The position numbers were made by a program, and so were the translations under genes. The notes under the pieces were generated by a model. It was not told where the DNA came from. It saw nothing but the letters and a program-made list of their open reading frames with translations, and did not search any database. Below are positions 56,867-58,258 of a stretch of 64,000 nt of DNA, one piece after another. Every line of letters starts with the position of its first letter. Positions within the stretch are counted from its first letter, which is position 1. The stretch comes from Qipengyuania profundimaris. Its GTDB lineage: Bacteria; Pseudomonadota; Alphaproteobacteria; Sphingomonadales; Sphingomonadaceae. Location of the stretch: the NCBI RefSeq assembly GCF_030717945.1, contig NZ_JAVAIM010000001.1, positions 123,131 through 187,130 of the forward strand. Reading direction: 5' to 3'.

Positions 56867-58066
56867 ATGAACATTCACGAATATCAGGCCAAGGAACTGC
56901 TCGCGAAATACGGCATCGCCGTGCCCACCGGCTATGCCGCGATGACTGTCGAAGAAGCGGTCGAGGGCGCGAAGAAGCTTCCCGGGCCGCTCTATGTCGT
57001 GAAGGCGCAGATCCACGCCGGCGGCCGCGGTAAGGGCAAATTCAAAGAGCTTGGTCCCGATGCCAAGGGCGGCGTGCGCCTCTCGAAGAGCGTCGAGGAA
57101 GTCGAAGCGAATGCCAAGGAAATGCTCGGCAACACGCTGGTGACGATCCAGACCGGCGACGAGGGCAAGCAGGTCAATCGCCTCTACGTTACCGACGGCG
57201 TCGATATCGAGAAGGAATACTACCTTTCGATGCTCGTAGACCGTGCCAGCGGACAGGTCGCCATGATCGCCTCGACCGAAGGCGGCATGGACATCGAGGA
57301 CGTCGCGCATGAGACGCCCGAGAAGATCACCACCATCACCATCGACCCGGCGCAAGGCTTCATGCCGCACCATGGCCGCGCCGTTGCCTTCGCTCTCAAG
57401 CTGACGGGCGATACCAACAAGCAGTGCCAGAAGCTTGCCAAGCAACTCTACACCGCCTTCATGGACCTCGACATGGAAATGCTCGAGATCAACCCGCTGG
57501 TGGAAGACAAGGACGGCAACCTCCTCGTCCTCGACACAAAGATGAGCTTCGACGGCAACGCGCTCTATCGCCATAAGGACGTGGAGGAGATGCGCGACGA
57601 GACCGAGGAAGACCCGGCCGAAGTCGAGGCCTCCGAATACGACCTCGCCTACATCAAGCTCGACGGCAACATCGGCTGCATGGTGAACGGCGCAGGCCTT
57701 GCCATGGCGACCATGGACATCATCAAGCTGAACGGCGCCTTCCCGGCGAACTTCCTCGACGTGGGCGGCGGCGCGACGACCGAGAAGGTCACCGCGGCGT
57801 TCAAGATCATCCTCAAGGACCCGGCGGTCGAGGGCATCCTCGTCAACATCTTCGGCGGCATCATGAAATGCGACGTGATCGCCAACGGCATCGTCCAGGC
57901 GGCGAAGGACGTGAACCTCTCAGTCCCGCTGGTCGTGCGCCTCGAAGGCACGAATGTGGAAGCGGGCAAGGAAATCCTCGAGAACTCCGGCCTGCCGATC
58001 GTCAGCGCCGACGATCTGGGCGACGCCGCCCGCAAGATCGTGGCCGAGGTGAAGAAGGCAGCCTGA
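56867..58066 (+). CDS. sucC: Succinate--CoA ligase, ADP-forming, beta subunit
   Basis: 399 residues. Beta subunit of the TCA-cycle ligase with an N-terminal ATP-grasp domain ([59 protein letters not shown]) and a C-terminal CoA-ligase domain ([40 protein letters not shown]). sucD does not follow; etfBA do. The alpha subunit must be encoded elsewhere in the genome. The 119 bases upstream hold its own promoter. Confidence 0.97.
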
Positions 58067-58190: not shown

Positions 58191-58230
58191 GGCCCACTTG
58201 ACGTTTACGTAAACGCAAGGTAGGTGGGCC
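58191..58230 (+). promoter_or_regulatory. Nested palindromic operator upstream of etfB
   Basis: A perfect 14-base palindrome CGTTTACGTAAACG (58202-58215) lies inside outer arms GGCCCAC (58191-58197) and GTGGGCC (58224-58230). TTGACG (58198-58203), a good -35, overlaps the left half, and TAGGTG (58221) is a weak -10 at 17 bases. The overlap suggests a repressor site. From memory the core is similar in kind to MerR-type LiuR sites that control branched-chain amino-acid genes; that identity is unverified. Confidence 0.7.
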
Positions 58231-58258
58231 GCGAATTCATTCGAGAGGAAGGAACGCC

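Follow-up and report, generated by a model that had tools for sequence, protein, structure and literature searches.

The window, the whole stretch of 64,000 nucleotides analysed here, carries the etfBA genes for both subunits of electron transfer flavoprotein (ETF), the common electron outlet of acyl-CoA dehydrogenases. The features of the locus are collected in Table 1. As sucC adjoins etfB, read-through from sucC into etfBA is possible; the same adjacency was observed for 17 of 27 etfB copies carrying the upstream site described below, and for 22 of 40 copies without it.

Table 1. Features of the sucC-etfBA region, in window positions
Feature	Position	Strand	Basis or remark
ORF taken for sucC, directly upstream of etfB	56867..58066		by eye
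Outer arm GGCCCAC	58191..58197	no strand	probably incidental
Operator TTGACGTTTACGTAAACG (LiuR-like MerR site)	58198..58215	+	putative; contains core palindrome and -35 box
-35 box TTGACG	58198..58203	+	inside operator; conserved in merR and etfB sites
14-bp perfect palindrome CGTTTACGTAAACG	58202..58215	no strand	sequence, window search, shuffles
Candidate -10 TAGGTG	58221..58226	+	17-bp spacer; weak hexamer
Outer arm GTGGGCC	58224..58230	no strand	probably incidental
Ribosome-binding site GAGAGGAAGG of etfB	58243..58252	+	by eye
etfB, electron transfer flavoprotein beta subunit, 248 aa	58259..59005	+	PF01012
etfA, electron transfer flavoprotein alpha subunit, 309 aa	59033..59962	+	PF01012, PF00766

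The palindrome upstream of etfB

An earlier note had described a 14-base palindrome within a second pair of 7-base arms at this position, its left half overlapping a TTGACG -35 box. Sequence and coordinates were exact, and the overlap consists of the first two bases of CGTTTACGTAAACG. This core is the sole match in the window at up to two mismatches (expected number 0.05). A 14-bp palindrome by itself is not rare in this window, where nine perfect ones were counted against 6.1 +/- 2.8 in 20 mononucleotide shuffles; the core with its left extension is significant through its recurrence, and the nesting is probably incidental. The extended site TTGACGTTTACGTAAACG, whose core reads TTTACGTAAA, scored 34.0 bits, the maximum of a weight matrix trained on merR promoters (38 sites from 38 genomes, own genome included).

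Outer 7-bp arms of such geometry occur at 0.95% of the window positions. We compared complementarity within each site with that after shuffled pairing. When the inner CTTG/CAAG extension was included, p was 0.0006 at etfB (39 sites) and 0.05 at merR (41 sites). In the stricter form with the inner extension removed, p was 0.08 for the 32 etfB sites of relatives and 0.12 after dereplication (29 sites, etfB only). The second arm pair, which had been proposed as part of the operator, was rejected as such, its conservation being not significant once the inner extension was removed, and is probably incidental. In a few relatives (L025, L014, L138) the outer arms look partly repeated.

The nested repeat might also be read as an RNA hairpin, either a sucC terminator or a leader element, or as a product of chance. 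The sense RNA does fold through both arm pairs, at -26.8 kcal/mol for 83 nt, and the number of palindromes of this size in the window is in keeping with chance. The z-score of the fold was, however, just -1.45, no terminator was predicted, the outer arms are not significantly conserved, and copies of the DNA motif precede a wide range of other genes. We rejected chance palindrome, hairpin and terminator on the motif recurrence, the z-score and the terminator prediction, and regard this whole group of explanations as scarcely credible.

Recurrence of the site before acyl-CoA genes

At up to one mismatch, TTGACGTTTACGTAAACG was found at three places only in the whole genome of 2.95 Mb: before etfBA, before a merR-acyl-CoA dehydrogenase operon (starting 35 bp before the merR ATG, with a downstream acyl-CoA dehydrogenase of 601 aa), and before a short-chain dehydrogenase (SDR) gene. 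Three mismatches added one intergenic site, between an enoyl-CoA hydratase (ECH)/acyl-CoA dehydrogenase pair and a divergent thiolase gene, and one site within coding sequence. The looser pattern TTGACSYTNRCGTNARS gave six matches against none for the reversed control, all adjoining acyl-CoA genes (etfB, thiolase, merR-acyl-CoA dehydrogenase, SDR, ECH-acyl-CoA dehydrogenase/thiolase, and acyl-CoA dehydrogenase); five of the six had served to build the pattern, and the thiolase site at 1030570 is the one blind match. With the matrix, a site of at least 15 bits was located within about 1.5 kb of 4 of the 21 genes with an acyl-CoA dehydrogenase domain, and also of etfBA.

The search was extended to a family sample of 59 genomes. 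The 18-mer returned 96 rows, or 83 unique sites when counted by hand, against 9 rows for the control. These unique sites are spread over 38 genomes and precede merR (31), etfB (18, with G014 counted), acyl-CoA dehydrogenase (10), ECH or thiolase (4), metallo-beta-lactamase-fold hydrolase (4), MaoC dehydratase (3), SDR (2) and nitronate monooxygenase (2) genes. Five single cases precede a flavin monooxygenase, a luciferase-like monooxygenase, a reductase without Pfam hit, a phosphotransferase and a PQQ dehydrogenase; four of the 83 sites lie inside coding sequence. Most targets were assigned by Pfam, seven (L116, L118, L252, L255, L268, L277, L278) by eye, and a site between divergent genes was counted for the catabolic one. 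The genome scan for further copies suggested in the earlier note was thereby borne out, own-genome and family-wide copies preceding genes of acyl-CoA catabolism. Three related SnoaL-like coding sequences (L107, L116, L118; Pfam on L107 only) carry a copy with two mismatches, which we regard as a coding false positive. One genome (G038) alone has 11 sites, before acyl-CoA dehydrogenases, a nitronate monooxygenase, a PQQ dehydrogenase and others, a strongly enlarged set.

Upstream of etfB, a matrix site of at least 11 bits was detected for 27 of 67 copies, each from a different one of 27 among 58 genomes, whereas only 0.3% of dinucleotide shuffles reached 10 bits. The scores were bimodal; four of the 27 were weak (11.8-14.6 bits; G022, G055, G010, G048) and were kept in the counts. 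In one further genome, G014, etfB is cut by a contig end with its first 25 codons and the site present, which raises the count to 28 of 59 genomes. Among 80 named etfB loci, two lacking upstream DNA were dropped; 21 of the remaining 78 reached 15 bits and 23 reached 8 bits, those of at least 15 bits including Qipengyuania, Sphingopyxis, Blastomonas, Aurantiacibacter, Aureimonas and Acidovorax. Conservation upstream of etfB in relatives, on which the operator proposal had been made to depend, was thus observed in both collections.

A LiuR-like MerR protein as candidate regulator

The gene at the second of the three sites encodes a LiuR-like MerR protein of 152 aa (contig C1, 1750559-1751014, between hisI and the acyl-CoA dehydrogenase gene), in which both the MerR helix-turn-helix and the MerR DNA-binding domain are present (PF13411, 59.2 bits; PF09278, 57.5 bits). 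Among five MerR matches in the own genome it is the only one of LiuR-like type; by eye, the other four resemble sensors of metal or mercury, SoxR, and a MerR whose gene lies close to an IHF-like one. Assignment to the metal or redox MerR proteins (CueR, ZntR, SoxR) was rejected, all 14 NCBIfam matches falling far under their cut-offs (best 56.6 against 143 bits).

A match to the 152-aa protein was found in 44 of the 59 family genomes, three of which have only a homologue of 42-47% identity (class B); the other 41 constitute clade A. The motif is present at the promoter of merR itself, at up to four mismatches, in 38 of the 41 clade-A genomes and in none of five class-B copies. In 40 of the 41 genomes the neighbour of the clade-A merR is the same acyl-CoA dehydrogenase gene, and hisI was found in 31 of 41, the upstream stretch being short for 11 of them. 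An etfB site (G014 included) occurs in 27 of 41 clade-A genomes against 1 of 18 others (p = 1e-5), and any 18-mer site at up to two mismatches in 36 of 41 against 2 of 18 (p = 2e-8), both values treating genomes as independent, which they are not. As 14 of the 41 regulator genomes lack an etfB site, the etfB target is optional. Two exceptions have sites without clade A. In G032 the sole site lies inside coding sequence; in G010, whose genome is 91% complete, no clade-A MerR was found even at a loose threshold. Its etfB site is weak, but G010 has good ones upstream of a hydrolase gene and an acyl-CoA dehydrogenase gene (L223, L262, L263).

Outside the family sample, MerR proteins were searched in 13 named genomes, eight of which have an etfB site. 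Four of the eight possess a clade-A type MerR (L013, L040, L045, L064). In two others (Acidovorax L074, Aureimonas L079) the homologues all belong to the LIU clade, and the remaining two (L017 and L018, from genomes G064 and G065) have only class-B homologues. In the last two the etfB site takes the form TTGACCTATACGTCAA with 18.4 and 20.5 bits, respectively; they break the rule, seen in the family sample, that the site co-occurs with a clade-A MerR, which points to a related MerR being able to recognise a site of this kind and slightly lowers our confidence in the clade-A protein as the reader. The site of our locus could, by the same token, be read by a class-B MerR, or by a fatty-acid regulator of TetR or GntR type (FadR, PsrA or FadP type). 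TetR and GntR regulators govern fatty-acid degradation elsewhere, according to the available part of PMC5343134. In Azospirillum sp. B510, a MerR outside clade A is encoded on plasmid pAB510c in a merR-thiolase-HAD/ECH-acyl-CoA dehydrogenase operon (L300), and the motif stands before that merR with 28.5 bits. Against such another reader, however, stand the motif at nearly every clade-A merR promoter and its near absence where that gene is lacking; besides, one of the five own MerR matches is of the fitting type, in a survey that covered MerR genes. We consider this explanation very improbable.

The relation to LiuR itself was examined on a tree that used 23 of 45 available clade-A rows. LIU rows formed their own branch (98/97) and clade A a separate one (92/93, not starred), with long branches noted, and the own regulator fell outside the clade formed by MerR proteins whose genes adjoin liuA. 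One alphaproteobacterial genome has both MerR types (L283 and L294), and the L294 locus reached only 9.3 bits with the matrix. Judged from the tree, the own regulator and LiuR are not orthologues in the strict sense; a label of functioning like LiuR, without membership in the LiuR clade, fits.

The LiuR proteins nevertheless have related sites. In Vibrio campbellii, liuR is placed between liu and ivd-type operons in the accessible portion of PMC3858670. We found a MerR gene between these operons (liuA and liuB identified by eye) together with two matrix sites of 26.6 and 23.8 bits. Sites were also detected near the MerR gene adjoining liuA in Acidovorax (L290). An Aeromonas locus of 12.4 kb (L298), a stretch outside which the liuA promoter lies, had no site of at least 6 bits. 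Going by these sites, clade A shares its DNA code with the LIU clade or, at the least, with a part of it.

The etfB site could accordingly be a canonical LiuR site, tying etfBA to the breakdown of leucine, isoleucine and valine. Besides the sites in V. campbellii and Acidovorax, the two named genomes having an etfB site with only LIU-clade homologues speak for this, as does PMC3858670, in a passage where etfABD is grouped with operons for branched-chain amino acids falling along with liuR. On the other side are the position of the own regulator on the tree, the presence of both MerR types in one alphaproteobacterium, and the own liu genes. The own liuA, 60% identical to Vibrio LiuA and adjoining liuB, has no site in 360 bp around its start (best -9.5 bits), and nothing of at least 4 bits was found with the matrix in the surroundings of liuA-liuB (L302, L324). 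Canonical LiuR membership was rejected on the separate clade and the site-free own liu genes, and we hold this connection to be improbable.

The earlier note had offered a fatty-acid or branched-chain amino-acid regulator of LiuR, FadR or TetR type. Its interpretation of the site is supported overall, and the LiuR side was right in kind, as the candidate is a MerR-family protein, although of a separate clade. As to the pathway, beta-oxidation of the fatty-acid type is a better fit than the breakdown of branched-chain amino acids, because the own regulator belongs to that separate clade and the own liuA-liuB lack the site.

Predicted mode of control and relation to known regulons

With a probability of about 0.78, the etfB site is the operator of the LiuR-like 152-aa MerR, which would control a small regulon of acyl-CoA catabolism. 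The site itself, its recurrence before acyl-CoA genes and the sites at the regulator's own promoter were established computationally. The same holds for the joint occurrence of site and regulator across the family sample, and for a 17-bp promoter geometry at etfB and merR.

A strict sigma-70 scan at etfB returned no promoter, and the -10 candidate TAGGTG is a poor hexamer. At the 17-bp spacing, the -10 element begins with T in 13 and has A second in 14 of 18 etfB sites; for the 37 plus-oriented merR promoters the corresponding numbers are 32 and 34. In the own genome, TA was found at this position for three of the six sites (etfB, merR, thiolase), and was absent at the SDR, ECH and acyl-CoA dehydrogenase sites. 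The operator motif at etfB takes in the -35 box and the greater part of the 17-bp spacer, a position that suits a repressor. By eye, the merR start codon comes only about 5-8 bases after the -10 in the majority of these 37 promoters (L165-L194, L232-L242), and merR mRNA is therefore probably leaderless.

Classical MerR proteins sit between the -35 and -10 elements and activate. The same MerR at the same site might, on this pattern and with the poor -10 of etfB, activate etfBA instead of repressing it. Promoters of MerR metal regulators have a spacer of 19-20 bp in the part of PMC5045206 that describes them. That spacer of MerR-type activators was not found here, the -10 candidate lying 17 bp from the -35 box, with TA at its start, at most etfB and merR sites. 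Moreover, LiuR is termed a MerR-family repressor in the available text of PMC3223726. Repression is the simplest role for a protein lying over the -35 box and spacer where the promoter has normal spacing, and activation is unlikely, though less so than any other alternative considered here.

For repression by the LiuR-like MerR, the following course is proposed. A MerR dimer would occupy TTGACGTTTACGTAAACG and, while bound, keep RNA polymerase off the etfB promoter. Acyl-CoA from the breakdown of fatty acids or similar substrates would release it, and etfBA would then rise in step with the acyl-CoA dehydrogenases, which depend on ETF to accept their electrons. What we infer here is that the protein binds, that it represses and does not activate, and that acyl-CoA is the signal. 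The electron carrier looks wired to the enzymes that it serves, an extension of a known kind of regulation with no new mechanism.

The balance tilts slightly toward a broader proposal: a separate clade of LiuR-like MerR proteins in alphaproteobacteria, encoded beside an acyl-CoA dehydrogenase gene and often hisI, in which the LiuR DNA code would have moved from amino-acid catabolism to general acyl-CoA oxidation. The etfBA target would have been gained or lost repeatedly, with one repressor setting both the dehydrogenases and their electron outlet. LiuR regulation is already known, and so is the grouping of etfABD with LiuR-linked operons. Within the literature searched, which was without RegPrecise and Kazakov 2009, the separate clade with its hisI-merR-acyl-CoA dehydrogenase context, the list of acyl-CoA targets and etfBA as an often-kept target in the family seem new; one or the other of those sources may list the regulon already, or etf among the targets of LiuR. 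The analysis names a regulator together with its motif and a small set of targets, all accessible to tests in a marine or soil laboratory bacterium, and provides a case of one DNA code common to regulator clades with different target sets.

The proposed system resembles the LiuR regulon in the MerR family of its regulator, in the motif shared with the V. campbellii liuR promoter region, in targets of acyl-CoA type and in the repression described for LiuR. It differs in the separate clade, in the hisI-merR-acyl-CoA dehydrogenase context, in the absence of the site from the own liu genes, and in its own targets, namely ETF, acyl-CoA dehydrogenases, thiolases, ECH and SDR. Branched-chain acyl-CoA as effector is a defining trait of LiuR.

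The ILV box and LiuR of Rhodospirillum rubrum are said, in the accessible part of PMC7238569, to extend past branched-chain amino acids to the use of butyrate. This is an alphaproteobacterial LiuR with a broader reach, and it differs in that this part of the source describes no ETF operator; nor does it give the sequence of the box. The PsrA, FadR and FadP regulons control beta-oxidation and thus share with the present system the control of fatty-acid degradation genes, but FadR is of GntR type and FadP of TetR type, in the portion of PMC5343134 available. The sites of PsrA, FadR and FadP presumably differ from the etfB motif.

The class-B MerR proteins (L301, for example), with 42-47% identity and genes for long-chain acyl-CoA ligase, thiolase and HAD beside them, are alike in context. 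They differ in lying outside clade A and in that the five family copies have no such site at their own promoter. Altogether, class-B genes at 40-48% identity (L243-L247, L287, L288, L301) were observed beside acyl-CoA ligase or other beta-oxidation genes.
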